In this document: one piece after another, positions 11,903 through 64,000 of the stretch | Layout of the letters: each line of letters starts with the position of its first letter | How positions within the stretch are numbered: position 1 is the stretch's first letter | Assembly: GCA_008330645.1 (NCBI GenBank) | Contig: VLTN01000064.1 | Coordinates: 124,001 to 188,000 of the forward strand | Origin: Cafeteria roenbergensis | Lineage: Eukaryota > Sar > Bigyra > Bicosoecida > Cafeteriaceae | Direction: 5' to 3' | Length of the DNA: 64,000 nt | The notes under the pieces: generated by a model | Seen by the model: the letters and a program-made list of their open reading frames with translations, nothing else | The model's database searches: none | Told to the model about the DNA's origin: nothing | Program-made: the position numbers and the translations under genes

Positions 11903-11934
<32 letters not shown>

Positions 11935-15543: not shown

Positions 15544-15574
<31 letters not shown>

Positions 15575-20777: not shown

Positions 20778-20782
20778 TCACT
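20629..20782. repeat. 22-bp minisatellite, 7 copies plus a degenerate copy, starting at the TGT stop codon
   Basis: Units GCC(A/C)..GCGCACTCACT at 20629, 20651, 20673, 20695, 20717, 20739 and 20761, with a longer degenerate copy at 20598-20628. Read on the minus strand, the first unit starts with the TGA of the tRNA-ribosyltransferase gene (CAG-TGA-GTG-CGC), so each unit repeats the stop-codon context. Confidence 0.93.
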
Positions 20783-25900: not shown

Positions 25901-27090
25901 ACGCCATTCGTCGATCGTTCTCGGCTCGAGAGGCCGCAGCGCCGCGGTCGGACGCCGGGACTGACGGCGCGGCGGCGGCGCGGTCTAACCTAACCCTAGC
26001 CGCGGCGGCGCGGTCAACGCGGTCCGCGGCCGCTTCGGGAGGGGCTAGCCTGGCAGCATCGCCGCCGGACGGCCCCGGGGCCAGTGACCCGGGAGTGGCT
26101 TGGCCGGCAGCGGCCACAGCACCGGCAGCGGCCACAGCACCGGCAGCAGCCAGTGCCGCCGCGGCAGCACCGCCAGCCCCGGCAGCTGCGCCGTCCGCCT
26201 TCCCTAGCCAGCGCTCGTCAGCCGAACATCACAGCCGCATCAGCGAGTGGTCGGGCCCCGGTCAGGCAGGGCCCCCAGGCAGCGTCCTGCCAACCTCCCA
26301 GGGAACCTCGCCGCTGCGCCGTGCCCTTCTCGCACCCGCGACCGGCCCTGCGGGCTCTGCCGATATGGTCGGCTCTGCCGATAGGATTGGCTCTGCCGGT
26401 GGTCTGTTTGCGGCTCTGCAGTCCAGGGAGGCAGTGGCCACAGTCGCGTCGCGTGCGTCGGGCCCGGGCCAGCTGGAGCGCGGTTTCAGCGTTTCGGCTC
26501 TGCTTGGAGTTGCGCATCTGGCGGAGGAGGGGGTCGCGTCTTCGGCTCCGCAGGGACCCGGGGGCCTTGTCAGGGGCCCTGCGCACGCGACGGGAGCTGA
26601 CAGTGCAACCGCAAGTGAAGCGCTGGCGTCTCAGCGACCCGCCCCTCAGACCCCTGCAAGGCAGAGCGCGTGGCTGGCAGAGCCGGCCACGGCCGGCCAC
26701 GCGGGGGGCCGAGGTGCGCGGGCGGGTGCAGCCGCTGGGGCGTCACTCGGCCATCAAAGTCCCATCCACCACCAGTCACGCGCCAGCCTCATCCACTCCC
26801 TGGGAAGCGCTGGCGCTGTCGGCAGCGGGCCCGGCAGCGGTGTCGGGGCCAGCCTCGCGCACGCTGCTGCCCACGACGCCGACGACAACAACGACGACGG
26901 AGCTAGATGGCCGCAGGCGCGGTTTCACGGCGGGGCGGCGTCGTCTCGGCCGTCGGTTGCACCGTCAGGGTCGGACGCCGTGTTTGCCTGGGACGCAGCG
27001 GTGGAAGGCACAGCCGAGAGCGTTGGCTGGGGCGGCAGCGACGACGGCACCGTGTCCAGCCGGAGCAGCGCAATGGGAGACTCCCCTTGA
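22957..27090 (+). CDS. Large low-complexity protein of unknown function
   Basis: 1,377 residues, single open frame from ATG at 22957 ([18 protein letters not shown]). I recognise no family. Visible: a Gly/Ala/Ser-rich N-terminus; about 55 residues of (Ser-Gly)n at about 242-295 coded by GGCAGC repeats; short conserved-looking patches such as [19 protein letters not shown]; a basic helix near 555-590 ([20 protein letters not shown]); and the most structured segment, about 780-865 ([20 protein letters not shown] then [20 protein letters not shown]), predicted helical and possibly a coiled coil. The rest is disordered. The gene is full of GGCAGAGC-type words, like the SCAPER homologue and the kinase tail. 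No signal peptide or membrane segment. The stop is followed within 10 bp by a GAGT-rich minisatellite. Confidence 0.7.
23684..23840 (+). repeat. GGCAGC hexanucleotide microsatellite coding (Ser-Gly)n
   Basis: Two nearly pure blocks, about 14 and 12 hexamers, separated by a short CGACACCGCC interruption. In frame it gives alternating Gly-Ser. Confidence 0.95.
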
Positions 27091-31065: not shown

Positions 31066-31541
31066 CAGCTGTGGCGCGTGCTGCTGGTCGCATGCCTGGT
31101 CAGGTGCCCCTCGTGCTCAGCGGTGGGTTTGGCCACGCGCCGCTGAGGAGCGCAGAGCGGAAGCAGCCGCGACGCCACAAGGCTTCGGTCCGTGTCGTGC
31201 CTTCAGGGTCGCCAGGCTCGGCTTGCGGGCTCCAGGCACTCTGCAAGTGTGAGTGGCGCGGGCACGAGGTGCGGCACGCGACATCCGTTGCTTCCGCCAA
31301 TGCGCAGCTGATCGATGATCTCGACAGAGTTGCGTCCCGAGCTGATCCGGCATCAGCGGCGCGAGGTTGCCAAGCAAGCGGCACTGCAGCACCCTCGTTC
31401 GGGGCGCTCGCGAAAGCTCTTTCCTTGTTCAAGTTCGACGCCCGCTGGGGCAAGACCAGGCAATTTGGCCTGGGCTCAAGAGGTGGAGGGCTCGCAAGTC
31501 CCGCGCTCCTGACTGGCGACGTTGCAGCGGACCCAGCTGTC
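31066..31541. other. Divergent promoter region; giant-gene frame open throughout
   Basis: Separates the methyltransferase start (-) from the giant gene start (+). The giant gene's frame has no stop back to at least 31083, and an in-frame ATG lies at 31092. The 31542 ATG is preferred because it directly begins a good signal peptide. Confidence 0.55.
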
Positions 31542-34500
31542 ATGGCGGTGCCTCGAGCCCCCCGCGGCGCCGCAAGCCACGTCGCATTTTTTGTCCTGTC
31601 TTGGGCATTGGCTGCTGCGCTCGAGTGTGACAGTGGCGATTTGCAAGGTGCGTGCATCCTGACGGAAACGCACGTGCTGACGGAACCAGTCGAGTTGTCT
31701 GGGAGCGGGCGGCTTGAAGTTTCAGCCTCCGCCGCCATTTCCTGCCCCACTACCGGCTGCAGCGTCTCGTTTGCGTTCCAAGGCGACGTCGTGGTGAACG
31801 GTCTGCTGCGCGCTGGCCAGCTCAACGTGTCAGGGGCGTCTGTGGTGCTGGGAGCGGGCGCCCAACTGGACGCTTCCGGGCTGTCCGCAGTTTCGGCGGA
31901 GAACGCACGCGACTTTGCCCCCTGGGTGGGCGGGGCGGCGCGCGGCGAGTGCACCGGGTCCGCCCCAGGAGGAGGGGGGGGGCTGGGTGGCCAGGGCTCC
32001 ACGGGAACAGAAGTTAAGCCAGAAGAGGGGTGCCTCAAGGAACAGTTGCAGCCCGGCCGCGGAGGCAGCTCGCGAGGCGACTCTCTCGTCTCGCAACCCG
32101 GCTCACCCGGTGGGCCGGCTGTTGTGCTCTTCCGCAACCCTGGTCAGGCTGACATCCAGTCTCTGGTCGTGCAAGACGGCGGGGCGGGAGGCGGGCAAGT
32201 CACAGTGAAGGCCGAATCAGGGTCAATCGTTGCAGCCCAAGGTGCGTCGATCTCCGCCAATGGAGCGCCTGGAGTATACGTGTCCGACATCGGTACTTCA
32301 TCAGGCGGAGGCTCTGGCGGCTCTGTGCAGCTTCTCGCGCCTGCAGGCTCCATTCAAGGACAGGCCATCGTGTCTGCAAATGGGGCTGGCATCTCGTCGT
32401 CGACCGGAGCCAGCGGCGGTGCTGGAGGAGGAGGCCGCGTCATCCTCCTGACAAAGGAAGCTGGGGTGTCTGACAGTGCCACAATTGCGGGTTCGCTGGA
32501 CGCTCGCATCGTCGCGCAAGCGCTTGGCGGCTCCGCCAGAGTCCCGGTGCCTGGTGCCGCAGGAACAGTGGCTCACATCGCAAGCAACGGCCATGCCCAT
32601 GTCAGCCTAACCATCGACAACGGCGGCGAGGAATCTCAGGCGCTGACTGTGCTCTCTGCGTCGGACGCGCCGCTGGTGGTGCCAGAACCCTCGCTGAGCA
32701 GCGACTCGGAGGTCCCGTCCGGGATGCCCACTCCGGCTCAAGAGGCAGCCGCACTGGCAGCATCGCGCAGGTGGGGACGTGTGACGGTGCGAGGCAAAGC
32801 CAACGTCGCAACGGCGCTGCTGGCGACGAAGGTCGCCTTCGAGTCGGTCCAAGCGGCCGCCGAAGCTGGCATCGCAGTGCCAGCCCCTGAGGCCGTGGTT
32901 GACGACTTGCGCCCGGGCACTCACCTCAACTGGCTGAGCTCAGCGCTCCGCAGAGGGGCGACCAACACGAGCGTCCCTGAAACCCTCGCTTTGGAGCGAC
33001 ATTCGCTTGCGGACAAGCTCTTCGCTCTCGACCCGCCGATGACGACGCTCAACTCCGTTGTTGGAGATTGGGCCGACATTGTCCAGGCTGCCAACGGTGC
33101 CCAGTGGGCCACTTTGGCCATGGCCCAAGCTCGTGCCCGACAGGCGTGGCCTTCTAGCATGATTCCTCGCGCGACGGCTGTCCTCAGCAGCGCGTCGCTC
33201 CAGGTGGACCAGGGGTGCCGGCTTGCCGGCCCCTCCCGGCTTCTTGTGCAGACGGTAGACGCGCTCATTGCCGGCGAAGTCGTGGCTGGGGCCCGCGTGG
33301 AAATCAGCGATGGTGGCGTGGGCGCACCAGACATCGCGCCGCTAGTCGTCGATGGCTTTGCCAGCGCTGCCGAGCGATGCAATTCGGCAACCAATGCGCA
33401 GCGCCTCGACAGCTACACAATTGACAAGGACAAGACGGACGAGCCCGACCCCGAAACGCTGCTCCGCGGCGGAACAGCGGCGGACTTGAGGTCCATGAAT
33501 TTTTCGAGCGGGTTCCTCACCGTGCGCGTCAGCAAGCCTGCGCTGGTCGTGGATTTTGGCGGCGAAGCGACCATGACCGGTATTGCCCTTGCTGCGCTTG
33601 GGGCAGGTCAGGCGGGTGCCCTGAGCTCTCTTGAGGTGCAAGCAGCGGTCAATGGGGGGTGGGAAGACGTCTCGCTGCTCTCTCCAGGCTCTGAGCCGAA
33701 GTCAGTGGGAATTCCTGCGATGATTCACTTTGCCCGGCCGATCACCACGTCAGCTGTCCGACTGCGTCTTCGGTCCACTGGCGCGCTGGGCGCCGGGTGG
33801 TTGCGTTTCTCTTGCCAGCCGGCGCGTGGCGTGCTTCTGAGCGGAGCAAGCGCGCAGCTCTCTTGCCTAGAGGATGCGTGCGAGGTCAGCGTAGACACCA
33901 CGGCAAGCGGCCTTCCCTTGATCGTCGAGGACGGGGCATCCGTCGTCGCCCCAAGGCCGAGCGTTGCAGCCGCTGCCATCTTTGTTCAAAAGCTTTTGGC
34001 TGGCGGGTTTGGAAGCTCCATCTCCGCGACTGGCCAGGGCTGGCGCTCTTCATCTGGCCCGGGCGCGGGCCGGGCTGCGCTCGTCAGCGGCACTGAAGGC
34101 TCGTGCAACGGCCATCCGTCCGCTGGGGGCACTGGCGCGTCGCATGCTGGCACAGGCGGCAGTGGCTGCGCCATCCAGCCCGACTGCTTCCGGCAGCCCA
34201 CCTCTTGGCAAAACGCCCGCGGCCCCGCTGGGCCAGGAAGCACCACCGATGATCCTGCAGATTCAGAGACATATGCGGGCGCCTTCAGCGTCGTGTATGG
34301 GTCGGCAGTGGCCCCGGCTGACATGGGAAGCGGCGGCGGCGCGGGAGTCGTGCGCGGCGAACCGGCAGGCCGTGGTGGACGCGGAGGCGGCATCGTGCGT
34401 GTTTCAGCCACAGGCCCAGCCTCTGCTGGAGACTCCTCGGCAGCAGTTCATCCTCTGGGCCTGCCTCACGGCGTGATCGGACTCTTGGTCGTGTCTGACA

Positions 34501-37500
34501 AATCCTCGCTGACAGCAGACGGCTCGGACGGCGCATTCGATCCCGATCCCGCTTCGGTCACCAGTTTCCGAGGCGGAGCTGGGTCGGGCGGATCGGTCGT
34601 GATCCAGGCAACCCGTGTCGCCGGAGGGGGGACTGTTTCGGCGCGTGGTGGCGAGAACAGCCGCATCAATTCACGTTTCACGTCCATCGGCGGCGGCGGC
34701 GGCGGCGGGCGAATCCTGCTCGCAACCAAAGTTGAACCATCAAACACAGCGTCCGCAGGACGGTCGCTTGTGGCATCAGCAGCAACAGGCTCCAGCGGAG
34801 ACTGCCCAGGCGGGTCCGGCACTGTCCTGTTCTCTCACTCGGTCAGCGCTGCGGGGTACGAGCATCCCCAGCCCGTGACCGTTCTGAGCCTGGAGAGCCT
34901 ATGGCCCGCAGACAAGACTGACGGCAAGCAAATGGTCACGCCACTGACGCCAGCGTCGCTCGGAGATGCCAGGCTGCTGGGTACAGTCCGCATTGCGGAC
35001 GCAATCGTCGTGGCTCCATCGTTCAGGGCCCCTGAAGCTCTCCAAGGTGCGACGCTCAACCGCGCAGGCGACGCGCTTGACCCCGCTCCCGAGCCGACGC
35101 CGTTGCGAGTGGGCTCCCTGGTGGTGCTGTCAGGTGGTGAGTTGGTGGGCGAGGCCGTTGCGGTGGAGGCAGCTGAGATTGTCGTTGCGCCAGGCGGGAC
35201 AATCTCCGGAAGCGCAAGCCTGCTTCTGTCCGCGCGCGACGACATGGACACGCTTTCCCGCCCCAGCCTGTCACGAGGCCGGTGTGCAAGCAACCCGTCC
35301 GCCGACCCATCCACCGGGGCCAGCTTCAACCTGCCTTGGACCTGGGCAAATGCAGAGGAAGACTTTCACGAGAGTGCCAACGCCGGCCCATGGCTCGAGC
35401 CGGGGTCTCTCCAGGACGGCGACGCGACGACAGGGTTTCGAATGCGAGGGACGCGCCCGCTTCTGGACATGGGAACACCCCGGTGGGTCAGCGGACTGGA
35501 AGTGCGCGGCGGCAGGCTGTTCGCAGACAGCTCGGAAGCCGAGTGGACCGGCTGGTCGGTGCAGTGGCGGCCATCTCTGCTCGCGGACTTCGAGGATGTT
35601 CCATTCACCGAGGCACGGGTGGGCGACAGAGTCAGCGCGGACTTCACGCGGCAGTTGAGGTTCCCAGAGCCCGTTCTGGCCAAGCAGCTGCGCCTCATTC
35701 CCGCAGGCACGTTGGCAAGCTCTGTCCTGTCGCTGTCTGAGCTGCGGCCGTTCTGCGCACCGGCTGGCCTCGCTCTGCTGGCTGCACCAGACAGTCCCAG
35801 GGAAGCTGTCCGCTGCCAGCAGCGCAAGTGCCCGCTCCGCATTGAGGCGGCAGGCCTTGGCGAAAGGCCTCCTGGAGGCGGCGGGTCGAGCTCCGGCTCG
35901 AGCACCAGCTCTGCGGCTGCAGGTCTGATGTCCGTAGGAAGGTTGAACGCGGTGCTGGAGGCGTCTCTCAGGGGGGGGAACATCTCCATCATCGTGAAGG
36001 GCGACGTCGAGCTGTACGCTGAGGCAGTGGTGTCTGCAATGGGCCACGGGCCTGCCGAGGGGCCTGGCACGCCGTCTCTGCCCGCTCCCCGCGGGCTCGG
36101 AGTTGCGGCTGTCAGCGGCGCAGGCGCGGCCCATGGCGGAAACGGTGGACCAAACCGCTTCATGCTGGCCGCGGGGGGAGGGGACCTGCCGCCCAACCCG
36201 CCAGTGTGGGCGGGGGGCGCATCGTACGGCAGCGCACTGCATCCCCACTGGTCATTTGGAAGCGGCGGGGCCGACCCAGTGCACTTCGACCCCCAGACCG
36301 ACGCGCAGTGGGCGCTCACCGCGGGCAGCGGTGGAGGCGCAGTCAGCGTGGTCGCTGACGGAGACTTGTGGTTTGGCTCTCCCGGTTGCGGCGTGCGAGC
36401 CGACGGCTACTGGCCGTTGAAGCCTTCTGAGTCGCAGACTCTCGGAGGGGCCGGCTCAGGAGGTGGCGTGCTGCTTTCGGCCGGACGCTCTGTTCTTGGC
36501 ACCGGCCAAGTCTCGGCGGACGGCGGCGAGAATTGGGGGTCGAGCAGGCCGCACGGCGGGGGTGGAGGCGGCCGCATCCTCGTGCGTGCGGCGAATGGAC
36601 TCATTGCGCCGACAGTCGACGTGCACGCATTACCCTCCGAAGGCTTTGGTAGGCGGTATGTGGATGACCGCAGCTCTGGCGGCGCGGCTGGCACTGTCGT
36701 GTTCGAAGCAGGATCGGGTGAGACGGTGACGAGAACGCTGCTGATTCGCGACAACGGCGACGTTGAGCGCGGAAGCGGACTGGTGGACTCTGTGCCCGGC
36801 GTGTTCACCCCTTTGCCGCTGGACCTCGCTGTGAGCTGGAACGACACGGACTTTAGTGCCTCGTCGGCTGTCGCCTTGCACCGGGTGGTAGTGACCGCCG
36901 GGGCCCTGCTTCAAGTGCCTGACGGGAAAAAGCTGCGCGCTGAGACTATCCGGCTGGACCAAGGCAGCCGCATCAACGGCTCAGCCTTCGCGATGGATGT
37001 TCGCCAGGCCGACATCTCCGGGCACCTATCGGCCACTGATGAGCTGCATTGGACCGACGAGTCGTTTCGCCAAGCCGCGGGGCTTGCTGGAAAGCCAGGA
37101 AGCAGCGCAGTCTGGTTTCCCTCTGAGGGCAGCGACGCAGCAGTCGGAAGGCTGCCCAGCAAGATGGCGTGCGATGCGGATCTGACGGACGAGCGGGGCC
37201 ACGTGCGCGGCTGGCTTGCTGTTCGGTCTCCTGACGAGAGGGCGGTCTTCGGGTCTGCAGCTGCTCAAGGCCACGACTCCAGCCTCGTGGACGGCGACTT
37301 GCGCACCCCACCTGCCCTAGGTTCTCGCACAGCTGACGGCTTTGCTCACTTCCATCTTTCCTCGACGGGACGAGTGCCCGTGCAAGACCTTCTGCTGTTG
37401 GCGTCGCCAGATCAACAAGCCGACCTTGCGGATATGCAGCTTTTCGCAGAGCAGCAGCCCCACGGAGACTTGGACCCCGAGGCCGAGTACGTGTCGCGCG

Positions 37501-58500: not shown

Positions 58501-61500
58501 AGGGCGGGCAAGTCTCCAGGCCTTTTGCGCGGTACTACGTCACGATGGCCGACGGCGCGTTCGTCGACGGGAGCGGCAACGCGCTTCCGGGGATTCAGGC
58601 GGGCGACTGGGCCTTCACGACCGCACCGGACAGCACGGCGCCAATGTTGCGGGCTTCGGTCCCGCACCTTGCTGCTACGGGAGTGTCCCAGTCGCTGGCA
58701 AAGGCGACCTTGCAGTTCAACGAAGCCATCCGCTTGGGTGGTTCCGGCACCATCGCCGTCGCTGCGACCCCTGGCCAATCACTTCTCAGCGTGGATCTGG
58801 GGGCTGATTCTGCCGAAGCAATTGCTGAGTTCCTGACAGTTGACGACGACACCCTGACCGTCTCGTGGCCGGCAGCAAGAGGGCCCATCCCTGAGCAGGC
58901 CAAGGTTGCGGTCACACTCTCGGCCGGTGCAGTGGTGGATGTTGCAGGAAACGAGCTTCCGGGACTGCCGGACCCGCGGTTCGTCAGCGACACCGCTGCC
59001 GCAGCAGCGTCTGCCCAGCATGCGCTCGAGTTCACGATTGAAGACGTGTCCCCTCCTTCGCTGGTCACAGTCACACCGGCCCAAGGCTCGGCAAGCGTTG
59101 ACGCAGAGGCAAGTTTTGTCTCTCTCACCTTCAGCGAAGCAGTGACAGTCGCCGATTCCGCCGTGCTGCGAATCTACGCCCTGCCTCCCAGCGTCGAAAC
59201 CGTTGAGCAGGCGAATGCGGTGGACCCCGAGAAGTCAAGCGAGGCAGAGCTCACCGACGAGGCCGCATTTGCAGTTGCTCCGGGTCGGTTCCGGGGAGCT
59301 GGCACTCCGTCCCTGGTCGTCACCCTCGGCAGCGCGTCGCTCGCACGGTCCAAGACATGGTTCGCCATTCTGCTAAGCGGGCCGCAATTTGTCAAGGATG
59401 TCGCAGGCAACCCGATGGCAGCGTCGTCGTTGCTTCCGAACTCGGGGGCGTCTGCGTGGCGAGTCCGCACGCAGGCGGATGAGTCTGCCCCGGTCTTGGT
59501 CTCGTCATCCCCCGCCAGCGGATGGACAATTGCAAGCTCCGCACTTGCGCAAGTCTCACTTCGGTTCTCGGAGGACGTGGTGCTCTCAAAGCAGCCAGCC
59601 CCGCTGTTCACAGGCGCCGGCGCGCTTGCCGTGGTTTGGTGGCCGCCGGGCGCGGCTGCACCGACCTCGTTCGCGGAGGCGGTGCGCCAGGTGCAGCTCG
59701 CCTCCGAGTTTGCGGCGTGGATTCGACTGACTGGCCCTGCCGCTGCCGTAGCAGCGCGGGCAGCCGGCAGCGGAAACGCCAACGCCACGGCGCTGGATTC
59801 TAGCGGATCGACCGTCGCTGTCCCGCTGGCGTTCGCTGGACTGGACGTCGCTGCACTGCCTGTGGTGGAACACGCCATTGCGGCTGGCACGGCACTGGAA
59901 GGCCAGAGCATAGGGCGAGAAATCGTCGTGGCGGCCGTTCCTGCCCAACGCCGTCTGCAGTCCGGGGCATCCTATTCGCTCCTGCTTGCCCCTGGAGCTG
60001 TCGTGGATGCGGCAGGCAACGCTGCCGCCGGAGCAATGCTGCAATTCACAACGGAAAAAGCAGAGTGCACTCGCGATGCAGACTGCATTCCTGGGAGTGG
60101 GTTGTGCGACTTTGAAGTGCTTAAATGCGCGCAGGCCACCTGCGGTGACGGTGTTCGGAACTGGCACGGACTGGCCCAGGAGGCTGGTGTCGACTGTGGC
60201 GGGCCTTGCCCTGCGCCCTGCAGCGCCGGTTCGGAGTGCACTCTTGGAACGGACTGCAGCAGCGGCAACTGTGGTGCCGACGGCAAATGTCTCGCCGAGT
60301 CTTGTTCCGACGGGATCAAGGCGGCAGCGGAGGCAGGGACGGACTGCGGCGGCGTGTGTGACGCTCCCTGCCCAGACCACAGCACTTGCCGCGTCGACGC
60401 CGACTGTGCCAGCAGCAGGTGCTCCGCTGGGCGCTGCAAACCCGAGCCCGAGGGCGGAAACGTCGGATGTCCGGCAGGGACCACGAAATGCAACGGGGGC
60501 TCCAGCCCGTGCTCGCCGTGTTCGACCCTCGCGCAGTGCACGTTCGGGCCCGAGTGTGCCAGTGGCGTGTGCAACGCCACTTCCGGGACGTGCGACTCCC
60601 CCACCTGCAGCGACGGCGTGCGCAACGGGGCCGAGCTCGGCGTCGACTGCGGCGAGGTGGCGTGCGGGTTCCGCTGCGACGGCGGGGCCAAGTGCACCCG
60701 GGCCACGGCTGGCCGAGTATGCGCGTCGGGCGTGTGCGCGGCCAACGGCACGTGCGCGGAGGCGCGCTGCGATGACGGCGTGAAGGCGGACTCGGAGCTG
60801 GGCGTGGACTGCAGCGGGGCGGTCGGGCCGTGCGGGCTGTGTCCTGCGGGCCAGCCGTCCGGCTGGTCGGCGTCGAACTGCGTTTCGGGCGTGGAGGCGT
60901 ACGGGGTGTGCATGGCGGCGACTTGCAGCGACAGCGTGCGGAACAGTCCGGGCGGCATCCGCAAGGCCGGCGTCGATTGCGGCGGACCTTGCCCGGCCTC
61001 CTGCGACTCGGGCGTGGAGTGCTCGCGTGCCTCCGATTGCTCCAGCGGCGTGTGTAACGCCACTTCCGGGACGTGCGACTCCCCCACCTGCAGCGACGGC
61101 GTGCGCAACGGGGCCGAGCTCGGCGTCGACTGCGGCGAGGTGGCGTGCGGGTTCCGCTGCGACGGCGGGGCCGAGTGCACCCGGGCCACGGCTGGCCGAG
61201 TATGCGCGTCGGGCGTGTGCGCGGCCAACGGCACGTGCGCGGAGGCGCGCTGCGATGACGGCGTGAAGGCGGACTCGGAGCTGGGCGTGGACTGTAGCGG
61301 GGCGGTCGGGCCGTGCGGGCTGTGTCCTGCGGGTCAGCCGTCCGGCTGGTCGGCGTCGAACTGCGTTTCGGGCGTGGAGGCGTACGGGGTGTGCATGGCG
61401 GCGACGTGCAGCGACGGCGTGCGGAACAGTCCGGGCGGCATCCGCGAGGCCGGCGTCGATTGCGGCGGACCTTGCCCGGCCTCCTGCGACTCGGGCGTGG

Positions 61501-64000
61501 AGTGCTCGCGTGCCTCCGATTGCTCCAGCGGCGTGTGTAACGCCACCTCCGGGACGTGCGACTCCCCCACCTGCAGCGACGGCGTGCGCAACGGGGCCGA
61601 GCTCGGCGTCGACTGCGGCGAGGTGGCGTGCGGGTTCCGCTGCGACGGCGGGGCCGAGTGCACCCGGGCCACGGCTGGCCGAGTATGCGCGTCGGGCGTG
61701 TGCGCGGCCAACGGCACGTGCGCGGAGGCGCGCTGCGATGACGGCGTGAAGGCGGACTCGGAGCTGGGCGTGGACTGTAGCGGGGCGGTCGGGCCGTGCG
61801 GGCTGTGTCCTGCGGGTCAGCCGTCCGGCTGGTCGGCGTCGAACTGCGTTTCGGGCGTGGAGGCGTACGGGGTGTGCCTGGCGGCGACGTGCAGCGACAG
61901 CGTGCGGAACAGTCCGGGCGGCGTCCGCGAGGCCGGCGTCGATTGCGGCGGACCTTGCCCGGCCTCCTGCGACCCGGGCGTGGAGTGCTCGCGTGCCTCC
62001 GATTGCTCCAGCGGCGTGTGTAACGCCACCTCCGGGACGTGCGACTCCCCCACCTGCAGCGACGGCGTGCGCAACGGGGCCGAGCTCGGCGTCGACTGCG
62101 GCGAGGTGGCGTGCGGGTTCCGCTGCGACGGCGGGGCCGAGTGCACCCGGGCCACGGCTGGCCGAGTATGCGCGTCGGGCGTGTGCGCGGCCAACGGCAC
62201 GTGCGCGGAGGCGCGCTGCGATGACGGCGTGAAGGCGGACTCGGAGCTGGGCGTGGACTGTAGCGGGGCGGTCGGGCCGTGCGGGCTGTGTCCTGCGGGC
62301 CAGCCGTCCGGCTGGTCGGCGTCGAACTGCGTTTCGGGCGTGGAGGCGTACGGGGTGTGCATGGCGGCGACGTGCAGCGACGGCGTGCGGAACAGTCCGG
62401 GCGGCGTCCGCGAGGCCGGTGTCGACTGCTCCGGCAAGGGGGGCCCTTGTCCGTTCCAGCCGTGCCCGGAGAAGTCACCGTGCGACGGCGACGATTCTGT
62501 CTGTGCAGGGGAGATGTTTTGCTCGCCTTTTACCCAGGCTTGCGAGGTGCCCACCTGCTCGGACGGCCTGCTCAACGGCTTGGAGACTTGCATCGACGGC
62601 GGCGGGCCAGCTTGCGCAGATAAGTGCGCGAACAATGCGTCCTGCGAAACTGCCTCCGACTGCGCGAGCCAGGTATGCTCGGGTGGGGTGTGCCAGGCGC
62701 CATCGTGCTCAGATGGCATTCAGCAAGGGGTGTTTGGCGAGGCCTACTTTGAGACGGACGTCGATTGCGGTGGGAACTGCAGCGGCTGCCACTCCGGCTC
62801 GGCCTGCCTGGCTTCCAGCGATTGTGCTACAGGACTGGTTTGCTTCATGGGCACTTGCAAGGCGAGCTCCCTGAGTCCCGGAACAGGAGGCAGCGGAGGA
62901 GGTGCGACGGCCCCTCAGCTCGTCGACAACTCCACCACAAACGTGGCAGACTTTGGCGCTTGCGTGTTTGATCGCCAGTGCCGCTCCCTGGTGTGCAGGC
63001 AGTGGGGGCGGCCCAAGGGGACCTCACCAGCGCGAACCCAGGAATCTGCGCCCCGGCTTCGCTCAGCGACGGGGTGCGCAACGGGGAGGAGCCCTGCGTG
63101 GACAGGCGCCCCGGTGAGCACAAGTGCCAGCTTGGCGAGTCCTGCCTTGTTGCCGCAGACTGCTCGACGGGAGGCGCATGCACCAACGCAACGTGCCAGG
63201 CCCCAACCTGCAGCGACGGGATCCTGGACCCCTCGCGCGAGACCGACGTGGACTGCGGTACCGCTGGCTCGTTGGTGCCCTCGAGTGTCAACGCCTGCAG
63301 CCTTTGCGCAGTGGGGCGGAAGTGCGCGTCCGCGGACGATTGCTCAACTGCATTGTGTGTGTCCGGCGTCTGCGCTCCGCTTCCCACGTGCACTGACGGA
63401 GTCAAGGGCGGCGAAGAGACATGCGTCGACGGCGGAGGCCCGACCTGCCCAGCGTGCGGCGACTTCGCGTCGTGCCAGCTGGATCGCGACTGCACCTCAG
63501 GCAACTGCAACCCGCTGGCAAAACGGTGCGAGCCCCCCAGCTGCTTTGACGGGAGGCGGAATGGCGACGAAACCGGTGTGGACTGCGGCGGCCAGACCAG
63601 CTGTGCTCGCTGCTCTGCGGGCTCGCGCTGCAGCGTGGGAGCAGACTGTGCCTCCAAGTCGTGCTCCGGCGGCTTCTGTGCGGCACCGTCTTGCAGCGAT
63701 GGCATCGCCCAAGCTGACGAGGCTCCCGGCGGAGACTGTGGCGGGCCGCGCTGCAGTCTCTGTAAGCCCGGTGTGTCCTGCACCTCGCATTCCCAATGCG
63801 AAGGGCAGTGCACGGGCGGCGTGTGCCAGGCGCCTAGCTGCTACAATGGCATCCGCGACGGGCTGGAGCAAGGGGTGGATTGCGGCGAGCCTTCGTCTGG
63901 CTGTCCGCAGTGCCTGCCTGGCGACCGCTGCACGACCAACGCTGCATGCCTCGGTGGGTCGTGCAGCGGCGGACTCTGCGCGAGGCTGTCGATTGAAGCC
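31542..64000 (+). CDS. Giant secreted/surface protein, glycine-rich modules + Ig-like + Cys-rich arrays (3' end beyond window)
   Basis: One frame runs from ATG 31542 with no stop and no evident intron to about 62999, then coding continues in a shifted frame to the window edge: at least about 10,800 residues. Residues 1-27 are a signal peptide (hydrophobic core VAFFVLSWALAAAL). Residues about 60-7,060: about 12 glycine-rich modules, each opened by a Cys pair (C-x4-C-S/A-V pattern), containing GAGHGGxGG and YGS...GSGGG elements and GGGRI/GGSV strands like parallel beta-solenoids, and often closed by a discoidin-like segment (for example WLRFDFGEPVTLDQVRI). Residues about 7,060-8,070: beta-rich linker. 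Residues about 8,070-9,500: 9-10 SbsA/Big_5-like Ig domains. From about 9,507: Cys-rich repeats. Related glycine-rich giants occur in plants and protists. Probable adhesion or cell-coat protein; a C-terminal membrane anchor, if any, lies outside. I checked the frame at ten spaced points. Confidence 0.85.
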   Translation, partial: MAVPRAPRGAASHVAFFVLSWALAAALECDSGDLQGACILTETHVLTEPVELSGSGRLEVSASAAISCPTTGCSVSFAFQGDVVVNGLLRAGQLNVSGASVVLGAGAQLDASGLSAVSAENARDFAPWVGGAARGECTGSAPGGGGGLGGQGSTGTEVKPEEGCLKEQLQPGRGGSSRGDSLVSQPGSPGGPAVVLFRNPGQADIQSLVVQDGGAGGGQVTVKAESGSIVAAQGASISANGAPGVYVSDIGTSSGGGSGGSVQLLAPAGSIQGQAIVSANGAGISSSTGASGGAGGGGRVILLTKEAGVSDSATIAGSLDARIVAQALGGSARVPVPGAAGTVAHIASNGHAHVSLTIDNGGEESQALTVLSASDAPLVVPEPSLSSDSEVPSGMPTPAQEAAALAASRRWGRVTVRGKANVATALLATKVAFESVQAAAEAGIAVPAPEAVVDDLRPGTHLNWLSSALRRGATNTSVPETLALERHSLADKLFALDPPMTTLNSVVGDWADIVQAANGAQWATLAMAQARARQAWPSSMIPRATAVLSSASLQVDQGCRLAGPSRLLVQTVDALIAGEVVAGARVEISDGGVGAPDIAPLVVDGFASAAERCNSATNAQRLDSYTIDKDKTDEPDPETLLRGGTAADLRSMNFSSGFLTVRVSKPALVVDFGGEATMTGIALAALGAGQAGALSSLEVQAAVNGGWEDVSLLSPGSEPKSVGIPAMIHFARPITTSAVRLRLRSTGALGAGWLRFSCQPARGVLLSGASAQLSCLEDACEVSVDTTASGLPLIVEDGASVVAPRPSVAAAAIFVQKLLAGGFGSSISATGQGWRSSSGPGAGRAALVSGTEGSCNGHPSAGGTGASHAGTGGSGCAIQPDCFRQPTSWQNARGPAGPGSTTDDPADSETYAGAFSVVYGSAVAPADMGSGGGAGVVRGEPAGRGGRGGGIVRVSATGPASAGDSSAAVHPLGLPHGVIGLLVVSDKSSLTADGSDGAFDPDPASVTSFRGGAGSGGSVVIQATRVAGGGTVSARGGENSRINSRFTSIGGGGGGGRILLATKVEPSNTASAGRSLVASAATGSSGDCPGGSGTVLFSHSVSAAGYEHPQPVTVLSLESLWPADKTDGKQMVTPLTPASLGDARLLGTVRIADAIVVAPSFRAPEALQGATLNRAGDALDPAPEPTPLRVGSLVVLSGGELVGEAVAVEAAEIVVAPGGTISGSASLLLSARDDMDTLSRPSLSRGRCASNPSADPSTGASFNLPWTWANAEEDFHESANAGPWLEPGSLQDGDATTGFRMRGTRPLLDMGTPRWVSGLEVRGGRLFADSSEAEWTGWSVQWRPSLLADFEDVPFTEARVGDRVSADFTRQLRFPEPVLAKQLRLIPAGTLASSVLSLSELRPFCAPAGLALLAAPDSPREAVRCQQRKCPLRIEAAGLGERPPGGGGSSSGSSTSSAAAGLMSVGRLNAVLEASLRGGNISIIVKGDVELYAEAVVSAMGHGPAEGPGTPSLPAPRGLGVAAVSGAGAAHGGNGGPNRFMLAAGGGDLPPNPPVWAGGASYGSALHPHWSFGSGGADPVHFDPQTDAQWALTAGSGGGAVSVVADGDLWFGSPGCGVRADGYWPLKPSESQTLGGAGSGGGVLLSAGRSVLGTGQVSADGGENWGSSRPHGGGGGGRILVRAANGLIAPTVDVHALPSEGFGRRYVDDRSSGGAAGTVVFEAGSGETVTRTLLIRDNGDVERGSGLVDSVPGVFTPLPLDLAVSWNDTDFSASSAVALHRVVVTAGALLQVPDGKKLRAETIRLDQGSRINGSAFAMDVRQADISGHLSATDELHWTDESFRQAAGLAGKPGSSAVWFPSEGSDAAVGRLPSKMACDADLTDERGHVRGWLAVRSPDERAVFGSAAAQGHDSSLVDGDLRTPPALGSRTADGFAHFHLSSTGRVPVQDLLLLASPDQQADLADMQLFAEQQPHGDLDPEAEYVSRAENREEWFDPDEEAGRRFQPWTTTGYEPLAGASSLVRFRPPAAVRTSAVRLGHPRGSSRTYDSFAEARPVCGADISVLDPSARLTCGAETLDGGLLIHGGQMTGTRRLRTRGCRLLVTLGRSSAHLVIEGQLAASNISVSAPAVFSAGLVSATGLGFPAASGPGAPPSVDALRCGTRRSGSGAGHGGVGGRSCRLYEDECGSPDANDAGNYLRGGRAYGDLAFPSTWGSGGGHSFNSKLAASGEQGHGRGGPGGGAVVIDATHELFLGRSSTTGLTIQAKGMPGTYDTLGETVGGSGSGGSVALRAGRVLVGSEGTGVDVTSEPVASLAASGSSGAGGRILVRASLANPPPELLDSLHSFGHEAKYACARGGAGPVLLEVALDGSRGNPTFGPELMVSPELNRGWNRTLKLAGAGSAQADADELGATPMPLQLPEGVGRSDADAVLALLEQVAVASTSDPRKWRPELDSSRLSPLPTGFLDSVDVQAAIAQAGPLTPLAARRVLVRETALVMGDKEARISALELQVEGQVSAEQRTVVEDDDWLVDSEQHLRRLHSTCNPAEASRMQSYTLLARSHVDGPNGESVTVDDASVILSDGDPNTAVITQKSEAGWLRFDFGEPVTLDQVRIGGVSKRSGAFQSGRISVYASNHPDVNEALTVYGTRSTASAKHLGWEDASLLRWPAVRARYWGLWTSAASHVWPAVSEVMWGCGSYPSWIVANSAKLKCTGSLCAVALQQRSTGSRLLVESDIAAPFISLQAAGGIHLSGVAISTTGLGHGPSQGPGTPEQVAPSRGCRERISGAGAAHGGLGGSANYFTTETDCPPTSDGATQRFASRNAYGSFDDPGDFGSGGGASWEFDCAEPIDGQALSAQAVGSSSAPVGTSHRWCGIGGSGGGVIRIATSAQLRLAETVLESNGVRGEKGPSSKFQGGSGSGGSISVTAASVVGVGHVSASGGGLGSTYYGGAGGGGRVSFLLDGGDLDGRIAVFADGASNRGGEVGYSAGGTVFVRSGDFSALYIRDQGKRSSVATTPLPANLPDSLSLIAINGTSRVRVPRGGVVKAAQLRIGSWAHLEGPEFTIDALQLFLEKDDPRSVGAHIAADRSLVITDTSFRTVDSPDSLLWRSGPFATLANPGWAASTPGSGRIEGAPPVCGGPTGGRNGPGGWRATDPAYVRSMDGAYDDFSSLHCAQSDQEARQWLSDGDSDVERGSSTGVCIKPHGGVAPGVAMGFHEPVTVSRIRVGLLRTVDTGSASTQSLVLLVSSDAVDAESPQWTQIPAGQFAEYHDSAGSETVSGSSLYLNLRHPVRARHFALQETSSSNSLKLSEVSLECGAVGLFMSGITETSSSWDQLSALQTRVLCGERDCSVAVSLGHPQALFQSFGIVNGSVVSIEAPEVRLGGAVHADAAGHVGSAGAGAAARDLWSPFSRSIYSQDASGIQNLGVCAASTLASGAGGSGGGQGGQACVASAPCAPGFAVSDAQGLALAPWTAGAGGQGVWVRGQEHPALGGAGGGRVRVEAGSGPIRFEHTWSQSAPRVSADAQGGSAFEDFGGGGGAGGSVELRSSHAVLGVGRAAATGGDAVWADGQYVSGGGGGGRVAAVATVGLSATVSLSASGGLSTDECSGASGTVFTSSQARGTRIEVANEQTALATTPWPADAPPSLSEAAIGQNSRVGLAEDTVLMAARVRVHGTAAISPLRTFNGTFPQLQTRVLKLRARQLDLDGTVEALGPGSHASVGADVMILGSQAKVFVPRGSVEAIGRDEVVEAADSGMSRRATRVPQQAIDSTADSNAWRHEHVCGMHNTTQVAQLRMFDVTRSKPVSQDEAVLTFDGDGGTSVTMYKTFDVYFLDDRGRRASTNINRISGATAPGGNILDHAILPLVGNGEGTTAKVDESRIFKAGRRHSRTGYGAGTVNLGDSGAFHLYLADAWTNVSGLQFRYVAGSELRPILAELSLDCDGQFFHMLPSTSIDCANERCAVEVRSRSAVAAIHGRIRGGDVTVESRSALVGSCGLVDASSLGFPGGMGPGTPLAIATVKQAEDLCGPVASGAGAGHGGRGGRAFTLQSTCGTPVSDEWPERAHGGLAYGSAAFPRDFGSGGARGFALRDLSASNPANAWPSNSLNWGGDGGPGGGRILVNTSGFVRLDGTVSADGGGMQQVDDFPSAAGGAGSGGSVVVSGAAGVTVSGAIRAHGGWCRSGSVYSGCGAGGRVAVLASSGVVSIADPSMASAFDAATSWELAAAPGTVLIEDSLIRELRIANSEAWPWPDEVETPWPLDLAGRDLTHASISRASVRVGLSPHEPLRVGDPSTKGLGAEEVASRIPPAWMQAHQVAVADSATIQGVDLDVRALGMRLDPTSSMRGSIRARLRDHPFVESALSLTPAGRCLAGEARSRYRVNTSSTESFPASWLRDGDPETMSGARDIVFQFDEPMALSSLRMKLMSHKSCVGGVRVFAHRKVDDWRETDESIWSNGDFWAPVVEPSGSEPPIDDVGQWRRLMWPMHTARTWLLACKSGRLDIAEAEWGCEGGPFELEGLLECQSELCETEVRGQSPFHATVVRGEIRGASIVVEDEHLQLHAKHADILAGIHAKGRGPASRNESRADGFGEAGVGRDPMRCGWDAPTGGSGGGHGGDGGTNSMLGSSEATQMCGINSQPGLAHGSATSPWSFGGAGAEGIDGGEVAAAGGRGGGRIRLQGTAWLDLLDAPMVDASGEQPATWVAATGDKVSGGGGAGGSVQIRAGEVTGRGMVLAAGASGHTNHAGGGGGGGRIALFAVAALSPAVELSVRGGRSEVDDRHGAAGTVFTEVAGRSEFIVDAEHDAPKSSGYAPVPHTPWPQDVPEFVDVVTVRNEAVVRAPDGAVLRARRLNLEPDSSIEGSSFELAVGVSRIRGAIRTTRGAKLSDRGFEALPALAAAVHLSSNGAICGEHGPAFRPEPVSILRSGSGGEALLRVDASVFLDSDPTSVLQLEQDSWVEFDFGKPVPLSHMRLQVTHGGRELGVWASNESSVPSADDAFPDHPVPVTTWGLDHGEIEDGAFVYDFEFPRTARFWQIVSKARQVDLASVEFGCGARGHEVRPDAVLQCVPMPGLDAEAALPDCSVSVDLRGVGARFTLGGEIRAPTVSITAPEMLATGLIDASEAVPPRDVVVVSHHTCSHTDALTVGGPGGSHGGLGGSSGEPQFSCMTRALPAAELGSAVEPFSFGSPGFAAMERGRKAAPGGRGGGRIRMRIAGRLVLSGGDAQILANGGEGINGNLRSSGGGAGGSIDIEAAVIGGRASVTALGGRGNDRSSSGGCGSGGRIALKALWLSGLSDAVTALASGQDYRCVASAAGTVYLEEQGRATLLIAAGEVDSSESNATTAFPRVELGANLHALRLTGSARLAVPPAQVWLGASGLDGPSPASPREDMRQASVLLAQGISGGQRPASLSVDVLNVDPGAAVVSSSVSATESHAPTQASILELEFVTADVHGSLEAPWGVRLLERPTGRVGAGAAPTSGNGCAVVLHQRRLELGETAKIRCFLRGCDVLADMPNTAFSMLPSSSTAAGATVQGSTIDMRFGAVHLGRHAKVTAAGLGYAWNVGAFSRGGAWQQGGDKLMQQNLDVEAGPVLGTPRKAAPGGRSMPPQCSVSGSGGSHGGTGSSSPHRSDEGVCGVMPRAAPYGSATDPWLPGGAGGRGRLGESHGFRWSGQGGAGGGRIRIVSHSRLHIEDQAVVDASGIAGLPSPLDGSVYGGSGAGGSVSLHGQVVRIEGQVHADGGAAAWSAGGSGGRVAVYSGWWLDRHSKRVSATGYEAQGTFTPDAGTVFWQVSGVSHLLIESRAAGSSFPDGGFEDVVAAGTMYDTAELPPERLASLTVHGPARLAAIPWATVSLSHSWEELSGWVSSSSRWAESLHPSVSRAPAQATVLFGGLNGTAVLRGIRPGVQARAEKARSDVLLALRRVAGGGSVVLDATGVGQLSILGAASQVVGASFVWVQAEACVAGLAPVVVARDAVIGGRIVGEWSATAGDWGALLPVLPAEAAPASSASAWGHPGAAALSASLNATGRSASERARSLRSSFAEAAREADSAAGGRRFCPAEALQAAAANAAGPDWHWRLRHPGVRAGGSSSSLDGWTAASGNRLAEPHVALWDGNAATYVESETPWIEVDFGKTVAISHLTLGWHNVKGIYAANESTPQGLASFPTVDQVPSLREVRWTADSDDVIDAYDVSEVDGGPVFARVLLLRGGSKAVLGELRVNCGTALWQVKQDATIGCSGEMCSTRLALAESESDLFAQQSSIFGSMVEVAAGNLWLSRHKSKRALVDASGRGLSFARSQSADARLFFTTIAFGCAWRVGATGSRAVAEACAWTLQGVPIGQLGAQLSADTLRSAAALPPQPPLALQFVPGCTGTVGGVGGTGVDRGGLPLSSGWVEALSPATEETKFCDFPSGVDFTNARTPPPEAAWADALWISGRRAPVMGFGAPGGLPQSGAVASGSFEDAAGQPGTGGGLIRVSGAQTVVLFCENSYSDCLTAAGREGESAHIAGSSVSSGSGGGGSIVVAGDRILGVGVLRASGGGTSSPSADIDGGGGGGGRVAILSKTELSNSVRGHTFAEARDSQLSGAHGSTVREVAIAGIRTLEVGDETQSKSLTTSTLPAGMPFAGISRLEVFEGARAQPAHAGAVVVATQVVAHGRIVSPGVGKLYDAAALADEDTLQESVFGRNLPSNDSLIVSASSLVTGRSSDSSLEGLAGVALLPAGATGRADYAAAWGPGFASLWGQQHAGPCATLQATGFDATSNTAAPVHVLPPAYQRVWLQAHSTLQCLRQGCSVRIAVPSARVSVEGVVRGGDVVVQADVLETTDVESRAAPSISASWMGFAPGTGPGVGQSFADAGYHDGMDATACPGVTGSGAGGSHSSLGGSKHVDDATPFNSAPQCRRSPRVDESSTYGGLPGVHGSQANASYSPLALTFGSGGGAGWAADGKPVPGGTGGGRVVMVARAMNLVNDKLAVSADGGDAQCRANACGGGGAAGSVVVVATESFEGFLSVSAVGGSGAASSRNAGGGGSGGNGMFMGVPRASVSLAIDGGDSSGQGGVQLFQEDMNDSTLRSAFAQLGSRTVSTVEALSPVGTTDRCHGLRSILASWSAGECAQARNAMLPCVMVLNITQQVEPTELTTAVLRQTGTPAIDQHLASMVEVSRHFVAPFPVPSSEWPVPLPFDMPEGLSAAQAVTLGPPSAAAHSAPIDKRVTINLVSWPPLDSFGHGNEDGAVRASGNWAPARPTSDAFRREAHATAHAATGAVFELSLGHRARFSPPSTREQSSTQHVRFRCGRRAELPWTSLRLETGANSSSLLRNGVDAETGLRTATFALLTGSSRADRKSLTASLPNPPVGTAFGSSLLVSIYSQPALAAAARQCANTSASQESEPALACACEMEMPRGTFVDIYSEPMPDWAVQFDLLPLASAPRAVGAGLGTSLSAPRAPPLQLTEAGNGTNSVSEARASLEFDADVSECPLAGRPRWSAVQLVRRGSSSDGEANPLLQPDFGPAMSEVWFSLGGASGANHSSVPRGLRVPFGYNGTVGKDDSPAFVPLRRGWNIDPQRTREAAPDDGTMEAPMAALVFIDDLSAPADQAPEPGTNTGIYLSDEAMPLAHWLGDAGAGWGLTSAGTALLSPAKAMASHPASWKATALAITAPDGKEVGALSQDIISPGHADDFVLSARFTLPYDSGPLPLARAAGVRSRGHAFSFSLVSAAVADLRGEAVARPDTWSATSNNLVAGGSSLSGFRARDSTFLTVAMNVGSTSGSVSIASSVASEVSCIGQIEPYHTYDLSIIGGASGAASPEWSHPKVAFAGTSMLLEIQDTTTGSRACRVRLPITARQLGPFRVALHAVPARQQYSAAAFLHWLRIGRLATAPQSAVLPMAPFGDAVDEFVTKRDASSLAKQAAATFEVRRANDTHQHQLVGSMSGGSTSLATSEKWLATRRKELGLPFAKHARVVSIAFHEASEAAAMLSASSSSIRVGFDNVTVGTRSGSSSPQGLWPGISLAPATISAGSGRQLGWGQRATAPMRPRPTLARDPAVTQLDPNAAWEMDAAQDRELPFEVAGFIPEQGESGVPLSLPMVSVIIRGQATPMLSSSGKTAMAIVEVSTGAQENSNSWALQARISLNQSSEFACGRVNVKLEESVIQRPDTLYRVRIPKGAFTPSLLSAHRSPALTVSFRTAADASPPRLLAQIPAPGSQAVQAGLPFVCMLWSEPVEAAILSGSTSSAWGTLSMAKFVSGAEVWHASAGDVRAGPAGSNSTYVWVNVSLPAGATASDGSEFSLLLGSGFVRDLAGNPNKAITSLSSWRFRTIDTVPPVLVQLTPRPLRSSGPPIAPFSVASVSLEFSEPVVLSATSASTLDVWERCRPSTLALNASTGSAGTALAETVCSKTWIHRQHVPLDDTRAVSVAGTSASVAIAPGAIRLPGAEYMVNISGPFVADHAGISWLSSELKATWTFATLADSLAPVIVALTPASDRTGVAWPPGLLPPVKILFAEPVVLAKPWSNVSGCGLILRVFEKANSETSYEARAPADTGTLLEPAPLAIQRNGAVVPFASATDEDRAREADPSGLTWTVGTLMLLRTAIEPDTLRPANVSRVAASSARIQVTLEGSCWTDSAGNALGRHEWWFQNADTLAPAIVDAIPRIGSSDVKLSSRHFVIEFDELVQRGEGTIRVVDYRSGLLIVAIDASSSPAVAVTGRRLAVTLPANALSRYAMRLCIVFPHGVVSDTSGNSAAEAKLCWSVEADSTPPVISSLVVGNGNSGVLNPRSAAESTLLFQFSEAVAMNASWPQTARPMVTISNADTGEVVMQRFGSHFELEETGESAFLGVRVQVPSFAGAMPPADFWAQSATRYSIVLEGGVVVDAAGNGNLPVSASGGFWFATADWQPPKIVAASPQHQSNSTQVGLRLLRLEFNEAVAPGQVSSATGQQGPLIKVFHDPGASLPVLVAELRVRLAAHVRVVKSSVSIFLQGGQVSRPFARYYVTMADGAFVDGSGNALPGIQAGDWAFTTAPDSTAPMLRASVPHLAATGVSQSLAKATLQFNEAIRLGGSGTIAVAATPGQSLLSVDLGADSAEAIAEFLTVDDDTLTVSWPAARGPIPEQAKVAVTLSAGAVVDVAGNELPGLPDPRFVSDTAAAAASAQHALEFTIEDVSPPSLVTVTPAQGSASVDAEASFVSLTFSEAVTVADSAVLRIYALPPSVETVEQANAVDPEKSSEAELTDEAAFAVAPGRFRGAGTPSLVVTLGSASLARSKTWFAILLSGPQFVKDVAGNPMAASSLLPNSGASAWRVRTQADESAPVLVSSSPASGWTIASSALAQVSLRFSEDVVLSKQPAPLFTGAGALAVVWWPPGAAAPTSFAEAVRQVQLASEFAAWIRLTGPAAAVAARAAGSGNANATALDSSGSTVAVPLAFAGLDVAALPVVEHAIAAGTALEGQSIGREIVVAAVPAQRRLQSGASYSLLLAPGAVVDAAGNAAAGAMLQFTTEKAECTRDADCIPGSGLCDFEVLKCAQATCGDGVRNWHGLAQEAGVDCGGPCPAPCSAGSECTLGTDCSSGNCGADGKCLAESCSDGIKAAAEAGTDCGGVCDAPCPDHSTCRVDADCASSRCSAGRCKPEPEGGNVGCPAGTTKCNGGSSPCSPCSTLAQCTFGPECASGVCNATSGTCDSPTCSDGVRNGAELGVDCGEVACGFRCDGGAKCTRATAGRVCASGVCAANGTCAEARCDDGVKADSELGVDCSGAVGPCGLCPAGQPSGWSASNCVSGVEAYGVCMAATCSDSVRNSPGGIRKAGVDCGGPCPASCDSGVECSRASDCSSGVCNATSGTCDSPTCSDGVRNGAELGVDCGEVACGFRCDGGAECTRATAGRVCASGVCAANGTCAEARCDDGVKADSELGVDCSGAVGPCGLCPAGQPSGWSASNCVSGVEAYGVCMAATCSDGVRNSPGGIREAGVDCGGPCPASCDSGVECSRASDCSSGVCNATSGTCDSPTCSDGVRNGAELGVDCGEVACGFRCDGGAECTRATAGRVCASGVCAANGTCAEARCDDGVKADSELGVDCSGAVGPCGLCPAGQPSGWSASNCVSGVEAYGVCLAATCSDSVRNSPGGVREAGVDCGGPCPASCDPGVECSRASDCSSGVCNATSGTCDSPTCSDGVRNGAELGVDCGEVACGFRCDGGAECTRATAGRVCASGVCAANGTCAEARCDDGVKADSELGVDCSGAVGPCGLCPAGQPSGWSASNCVSGVEAYGVCMAATCSDGVRNSPGGVREAGVDCSGKGGPCPFQPCPEKSPCDGDDSVCAGEMFCSPFTQACEVPTCSDGLLNGLETCIDGGGPACADKCANNASCETASDCASQVCSGGVCQAPSCSDGIQQGVFGEAYFETDVDCGGNCSGCHSGSACLASSDCATGLVCFMGTCKASSLSPGTGGSGGGATAPQLVDNSTTNVADFGACVFDRQCRSLVCRQWGRPKGTSPARTQESAPRLRSATGCATGRSPAWTGAPVSTSASLASPALLPQTARREAHAPTQRARPQPAATGSWTPRARPTWTAVPLARWCPRVSTPAAFAQWGGSARPRTIAQLHCVCPASALRFPRALTESRAAKRHASTAEARPAQRAATSRRASWIATAPQATATRWQNGASPPAALTGGGMATKPVWTAAARPAVLAALRARAAAWEQTVPPSRAPAASVRHRLAAMASPKLTRLPAETVAGRAAVSVSPVCPAPRIPNAKGSARAACARRLAATMASATGWSKGWIAASLRLAVRSACLATAARPTLHASVGRAAADSARGCRLK
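31740..52750 (+). repeat. Array of about 12 glycine-rich beta-solenoid modules
   Basis: Modules open with a Cys pair: ISCPTTGCSV (about 31740), LSCLEDACEV (33865), VRCQQRKCPL (35812), a single-Cys form TRGCRLLV (37830), LKCTGSLCAV (39676), VLCGERDCSV (41578), IDCANERCAV (43421), LECQSELCET (45118), a long form ending LPDCSV (46753), IRCFLRGCDV (48067), IGCSGEMCST (50263) and LQCLRQGCSV (51919). Spacing is 1.3-2.2 kb. Core elements in order: VxGxVxGxxVxV strands, GAGHGGxGG loop, YGS-x-GSGGG, GGGRIxI, ADGG, GSGGSVxI, GGGGGGRIAx, AGTVF, then in most modules a discoidin-like domain with DGD-T and FDFG-PV motifs ending near a Cys. The modules at about 46.7 and 51.9 kb lack the discoidin part. Confidence 0.8.
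55750..60050 (+). repeat. Tandem SbsA-type Ig-like (Big_5) domains, 9-10 copies
   Basis: Each copy of about 130-170 residues starts D-x-x-(P/A)P-x-(I/L)-V and carries an (F/L)xF(S/N)E(A/P)V strand and a VVDxAGN motif. Starts at about 55750, 56133, 56520 (DTVPPVLVQLTP), 56973 (DSLAPVIVALTP), 57483 (DTLAPAIVDAIP), 57828 (DSTPPVISSL), 58242 (DWQPPKIVAASP), 58632 (DSTAPMLRASVP), 59046 (DVSPPSLVTVTP) and 59478 (DESAPVLVSSSP). Such domains usually act as stalk spacers in surface proteins; they are best known from bacterial S-layer proteins. Confidence 0.8.
60060..64000 (+). repeat. Cys-rich repeat array of the giant protein
   Basis: Repeats of about 40-60 residues built on CSDGVRNGxE..VDCGG.C..C..G..C....DC.SGVC, running to the window edge. 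The spacing suggests disulfide-stapled small domains. Four units form the higher-order 483-bp repeat at 60564-62430. An apparent frame change lies near 63004. Confidence 0.85.
60564..62430 (+). repeat. 483-bp (161-residue) near-identical tandem repeat, 3 full + 1 partial copy
   Basis: Copies start with GGCGTGTG at 60564, 61047, 61530 and 62013. The period is exactly 161 codons. Only scattered differences separate copies (for example GGIRK/GGIRE/GGVRE, CMAAT/CLAAT, AKCT/AECT). The fourth copy departs after GVREAGVDC near 62425. The near identity contrasts with the diverged Cys modules on both sides. Confidence 0.95.

Follow-up and report, generated by a model that had tools for sequence, protein, structure and literature searches.

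A giant modular and probably secreted protein is encoded on the forward strand of the window (the whole stretch of 64,000 nucleotides analysed here), and both its reading frame and its domain map support this well. We read it, with moderate confidence, as a secreted single-chain adhesive fibre of at least about 10,800 residues, encoded by a single nuclear gene of a microbial eukaryote. The unusual feature is how the modules are combined, in one near-intronless eukaryotic gene of more than 31 kb; singly, the parts are already known or occur in prokaryotes as well. The features of the gene are as follows:

31542..31640, + strand: likely start codon and signal-peptide-like leader, read by eye from the translation
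31716..52817, + strand: twelve glycine-rich solenoid modules (own HMM)
31716-32651, 33843-34913, 35787-36770 and 37731-38645, + strand: solenoids 1-4
39645-40604, 41550-42476, 43389-44333 and 45099-46022, + strand: solenoids 5-8
46725-47600, 48039-49028, 50451-51422 and 51888-52817, + strand: solenoids 9-12
33369..50234, + strand: nine discoidin/CBM32-like domains (own profile, Pfam F5_F8_type_C, Foldseek)
33369-33824, 35271-35765, 37158-37721, 39159-39638 and 40944-41504, + strand: discoidin-like domains 1-5
42888-43385, 44652-45092, 46269-46721 and 49722-50234, + strand: discoidin-like domains 6-9
52818..55754, + strand: unassigned stretch of about 980 residues, in which Pfam and own profiles gave no F5/8, Big_5 or solenoid domain
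55755..60056, + strand: ten Big_5-type Ig domains in tandem (Pfam, own alignment and HMM)
60057..63000, + strand: main-frame part of the Cys-rich array (13.7% Cys)
60559..62429, + strand: 483-bp tandem repeat, 161-residue unit, 3.9 copies, 98% matches
62990..63040, + strand: frame change by +2, through a short intron or, near a GGGGG run, a one-base indel
62972..64000, + strand: open second frame that carries on the Cys-rich array and runs off the window

Coding continuity and genomic setting

The + strand frame that holds the ATG at 31542 is open throughout from stop to stop (30537..63998). Between 31542 and 62990 (10,482 codons) it contains no stop, against about 276 predicted from base composition, so that a chance open frame can be rejected across these 31.4 kb; the other five frames carry 118-231 stops each over the same interval. 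This confirms the initial annotation, made from the letters alone, in its central observation of a frame free of stops for more than 31 kb from this ATG. Several genes could lie within one such frame only if splicing separated them. A codon model trained on two ORFs of the same contig, the queuine tRNA-ribosyltransferase-like ORF (20781-22661, - strand) and the kinase ORF (1301-4498, + strand; its entire stop-to-stop span, which may contain some non-coding sequence), placed the giant's frame top of the three + frames in all 35 stretches of 900 nt, and top of all six frames in 33 of them; a minus frame outscored it at 53142 and 55842. With 300-nt steps the model flagged 9 of 208, seven because another + frame scored higher and two because the score was slightly negative.

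Following ATG 31542, a Met, a basic n-region and a hydrophobic core look by eye like a signal peptide. Since a second in-frame ATG lies upstream at 31092, ATG 31542 is the presumed start. The main frame gives about 10,486 residues and the second frame about 320, close to the length of about 10,800 originally estimated. As had been anticipated, the 3' end of the gene lies outside the window, the second frame being still open where the window ends.

The initial annotation had carried a single frame on to 64000, and here it needs correction. Beyond about 63.0 kb the main frame drops its Cys pattern and the Cys-rich array resumes in the frame offset by +2, while the frame preferred by the codon model changes between 62.85 and 63.03 kb. 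With both the Cys pattern and the codon signal moving to the other frame, we discarded the last 1 kb of the frame as first drawn as spurious. The change is probably either a tiny intron or a one-base indel. Intron lengths compatible with the frame are 29-38 nt (counted by hand on the sequence), and a one-base indel would also explain the change, a run of five Gs lying nearby. A tiny intron is favoured by the shorter Cys spacing that would result, and disfavoured because the sole traceable intron, in the kinase gene, is 247 nt long. A longer intron starting at about 62.84 kb was set aside by eye, as the Cys pattern persists up to about 63.0 kb. The original description of a gene with no visible intron thus stands up to about 63.0 kb, and at that point a tiny intron or an indel must be invoked.

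Judging by sequence matches of the neighbouring genes, the host is a eukaryote: we base this on the tRNA-ribosyltransferase match, the split kinase domain, an ankyrin ORF and weak flagellar-type matches. The neighbours are:

901-4498, + strand: protein kinase gene with a split kinase domain
9913-10560, - strand, and 19069-20082, + strand: ankyrin-repeat ORFs
11257-18627, - strand (2,456 aa), and 22957-27090, + strand (1,377 aa): long low-complexity ORFs rich in Ala, Gly, Ser and Pro, with weak Pfam matches only
20781-22661, - strand: 627-aa ORF like queuine tRNA-ribosyltransferase catalytic subunit 1; its catalytic domain lies within a single open frame
29644..31065, - strand: divergent neighbour ORF, methyltransferase-like (PrmA/METTL type; Pfam PrmA, E 3.9e-7)

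The ORF at 20781-22661 matches the eukaryotic queuine tRNA-ribosyltransferase catalytic subunit 1 at 1.6e-134; bacterial enzymes reach about 2e-85 at best. For the kinase gene the most plausible intron is 1021-1267 (247 nt, GT..AG), the best of four frame-compatible pairs, which bears out for one gene the earlier statement that other genes here have introns. Near its end the kinase ORF has a sub-cutoff match to IFT57 (38.8 bits; cutoff 40), and weak flagellar-type matches occur among the neighbour ORFs. Weak PDB matches of the methyltransferase-like ORF include METTL21C. In the two low-complexity ORFs our own profiles found no solenoid, discoidin-like or Big_5 domain.

Module architecture

The order first proposed, solenoids with discoidin-like domains followed by Big_5 domains and a Cys-rich array, was recovered in the domain map drawn from Pfam and our own profiles. 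Where about twelve glycine-rich solenoids had been expected, our HMM resolved exactly twelve, with i-E values between 1e-60 and 1e-92 (the training sequences being among those scored); a weak partial match of 14 bits also lies before solenoid 11. The module is about 300 residues long; 16 positions, namely 15 Gly and one Cys, are invariant across the 12 copies. No Pfam family was reported across the solenoids, their profile matched no PDB chain, and we found no relation between the solenoid and discoidin-like profiles. We modelled unit 7 (a solenoid with its discoidin-like domain) with AlphaFold2, using the 12 units as alignment, and obtained a mean pLDDT of 70.5 and a pTM of 0.66. The solenoid half forms stacked short parallel-type strands with pLDDT mostly above 80 outside loops; confidence in the discoidin half is mostly poorer. 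A fold search with this model returned nothing at E <= 0.001 in PDB (Foldseek) or BFVD, and no confident beta-helix match.

Discoidin-like caps had been ascribed to about twelve solenoids; we count nine, with none found after solenoids 9, 11 and 12. A conserved Cys stands at both ends of the domain in all nine copies. Pfam F5_F8_type_C (PF00754) scores 44.3 bits (cutoff 28.2) when summed over copies in the first 5,000 residues; the copies are very divergent, and as single slices two of seven gave sub-cutoff Pfam matches and five gave none. Top-ranked in Foldseek with the unit model were fucosidases, sialidases and domains of CBM32 or F5/8C type, at probabilities mostly of 0.9-1.0 and E 0.02-0.3; confidence in the discoidin half of the model is low. 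Searched against PDB, the nine-domain profile gave six rows at E <= 1, all of them CBM-bearing glycan hydrolases (E 0.018-0.42). The terminal Cys pair, the fold neighbours and the Pfam match for the first half of the giant point towards F5/8 type C/CBM32 domains, but the copies are very divergent and most go unrecognised singly. All nine copies may adopt the discoidin fold, and glycan binding is their putative activity.

Between the last solenoid and the Big_5 domains lie the approximately 980 residues that NCBIfam, too, left without a match. Within them, 54333-55593 gave nothing in Pfam and nothing convincing in PDB; a guess that this is an L-type lectin was a reading by eye with no Pfam or PDB support, and we dropped it. 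The ten Big_5 domains (PF13205) score E 1.6e-35 and 122.4 bits against a cutoff of 23.6, and four stretches pass alone; their profile found no relative in PDB at a limit of 0.01. Nor did the Cys-rich unit find a relative in PDB. The 483-bp repeat within the Cys-rich array is a recent amplification. Its copies differ, per pair, by 1-7 synonymous and 1-5 non-synonymous codons, too few to gauge selection. Copy number at 60559-62429 may vary, and the assembly may collapse there.

Relatives of the modules

On sequence evidence, the solenoid, Big_5 and Cys-rich modules are homologous to prokaryotic modules. A scan of prokaryotic genomes for the solenoid confirmed at least three loci among the 585 pattern stretches listed. 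When frames from those and overlapping loci were scored (418 in total, database size set to one million), the profile matched 12 of 209 forward frames and none of 209 reversed frames at E <= 1, several of the twelve being overlapping loci on the same contigs. With at most 11 candidates scored per genome and the seed genomes (G001 and G003) included, the module was found in at least 7 of 199 genomes in the phylum of a Thermoanaerobaculia MAG and at least 15 of 199 in the phylum of a Phycisphaerales MAG, both counts being lower bounds. It also occurs in an archaeon, uncultured archaeon LFW-252_3. The prokaryotic proteins are large (open frames of 357-6,157 aa), and match across most of the 304-position profile, often with three or four modules in tandem. 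The domains that accompany the solenoid in them are of extracellular type:

Thermoanaerobaculia MAG (L001): Big_7
uncultured archaeon LFW-252_3 (L002): NosD/beta-helix
G037 (L025): Big_7, Big_5 and carboxypeptidase-regulatory-like domains
G203 (L023): Ig_3
L020: fn3

In L001 and L025 the solenoid alternates with Ig-type domains (Big_7, and Big_7 with Big_5); L025 is the single case among the prokaryotic proteins in which Big_5 adjoins the solenoid. Other large prokaryotic proteins with the giant's solenoid come from the Phycisphaerales MAG (L003) and G328 (L022). These proteins differ from the giant in their prokaryotic host; in the two sets scanned with Pfam (six and three proteins), neither an F5/8-type domain nor a Cys-rich array was reported. 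Separately, a 2,769-aa frame in the phylum of the Phycisphaerales MAG (L024:4811-13117) has one solenoid beside LamG, TIG and RHS.

Of 149 genomes searched in each phylum, one in that of the Thermoanaerobaculia MAG carries the Cys-rich repeat (G062, locus L027; 49% identity, E 1.5e-23) and none in that of the Phycisphaerales MAG. The bacterial protein shares the giant's repeat pattern C.DG..NG.E.GVDCGG.C..C...C....DC.SG.C; it differs in its frame of 965 aa, and the part of it that was read has no solenoid. A viral, plasmid or phage source of the modules was set aside: among viral contigs, 600 pattern stretches yielded no confirmed solenoid, and one module used as query had no match in the plasmid and phage collections.

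A tree was built from 42 solenoid rows, 12 of the giant and 30 prokaryotic, after removal of domains whose E exceeded 1e-5 or that covered no more than 180 positions. All twelve rows of the giant cluster together, with support 99/98. Two pairs among the prokaryotic rows each come from a single locus and are nearly identical, and long branches were flagged. The tree holds no eukaryotic relative and says nothing on where the module came from. The giant's solenoids sit on long branches, which points to old duplications, in contrast to the tandem array with its 98% matches. We met no description of the order in the openly licensed literature searched, and the earlier remark that no described protein has it is thus uncontradicted there. 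Three of the four recognised module types (solenoid, Big_5 and Cys-rich) do occur in prokaryotic proteins, so that the unusual points are how they are combined, how large the protein is and that its host is a eukaryote.

Titin, SwmB of Synechococcus, PKZILLA and the Omnitrophota giants are in the same size class, built of other modules and mostly with other roles. Larger proteins exist, and the giant's size is therefore no record. Plant glycine-rich proteins of the At5g11700 type have about 1,400 residues and are wall- or membrane-associated; the order of Gly-rich motifs in At5g11700, At4g32920 and At5g47020 presumably resembles that of the giant's solenoid.

Proposed function and competing readings

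In the reading that we prefer, twelve beta-solenoid rods alternate on the N-terminal side with nine galactose-binding-like (discoidin/CBM32-like) domains, so that many weak glycan-binding sites would line a stiff rod. The ten Big_5 domains would make a stalk, the Cys-rich array, probably disulfide-stapled, would lie toward the C-terminus, and an anchor would be expected at the C-terminus, outside the window. Such a fibre could adhere multivalently to glycans, be they on prey, on surfaces, in the matrix or on sister cells. That the protein is secreted, comes from one continuous mRNA and has this orientation, anchoring and biological role is inferred. In favour of this reading are the open frame with its coding signal, the domain map, the predicted solenoid, the CBM32 and F5/8C structural neighbours with the weak glycan-hydrolase rows, prokaryotic proteins in which this solenoid alternates with Ig-type domains, and the eukaryotic neighbour genes. 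Against it count that only some discoidin copies reach Pfam, that the unit model has no PDB match at E <= 0.001, that about 980 residues are without assignment, that no anchor or C-terminus is seen within the window, that the frame changes at about 63.0 kb, and that a minus frame scored higher in 2 of 35 stretches.

Multivalent adhesion seems the most likely use of such a fibre, and a structural coat its main rival. As a coat, wall, cyst or scale protein, the giant would use its discoidin-like domains to bind the cell's own polysaccharide, for protection and not for adhesion to others. This accounts for the same modules as the adhesive reading, a stable coat is well served by solenoids and Cys-rich arrays, and the plant proteins whose motif pattern is presumably similar are associated with walls or membranes; no specific point tells against it. 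We judge a coat unlikely, though a serious contender. A further objection would be that splicing takes out in-frame introns, or that alternative splicing gives smaller proteins, the whole chain being seldom or never made. The neighbouring kinase gene does have an intron, an intron of 3n nucleotides and free of stops would escape frame analysis anywhere in the giant gene, and the frame change near 63.0 kb may itself be a tiny intron. However, an intron would break the frame in roughly two cases out of three, and the 31.4 kb contain no such break, which argues against hidden splicing; moreover, the modules abut edge to edge (the longest gap being the stretch of about 980 residues) and the codon signal persists. 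Splicing into smaller products is accordingly improbable.

That bacterial or chimeric sequence was joined to a eukaryotic contig might be supposed from the prokaryotic relatives of the solenoid, Big_5 and Cys-rich modules, but the codon model drawn from eukaryotic neighbours picks the frame in every one of the 35 stretches, base composition has no break at the 5' start of the gene, and the twelve solenoids group apart; we consider such a join very improbable. We give equally little credence to a decaying gene in which a genuine inactivating mutation caused the frame change near 63.0 kb, since the 31.4 kb upstream of it and about 1 kb downstream are both open and patterned, and the change is more simply explained by a tiny intron or an error in the sequence.

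More tentatively than the adhesive fibre itself, we suggest that a eukaryote has built an adhesive surface fibre of more than 10,000 residues, effectively in one exon, of an otherwise prokaryotic kind: bacterial-type solenoid, Big_5 and Cys-rich modules combined with discoidin-like domains, with ancient duplication of the solenoid and very recent amplification of the Cys-rich repeat. It might be a counterpart of the bacterial giant adhesins, whether acquired by transfer or assembled in parallel. Prey capture or surface protection, the putative roles named at the outset, are plausible. If made whole, the protein would be among the larger ones known, and a microbial eukaryote would keep a coding frame of more than 31 kb nearly intron-free despite introns in its genome. 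The gene links a widespread, unnamed prokaryotic solenoid module to a eukaryotic surface giant, and offers a defined test case for how such a fibre may bind and be anchored, and for whether its parts arrived by gene transfer.
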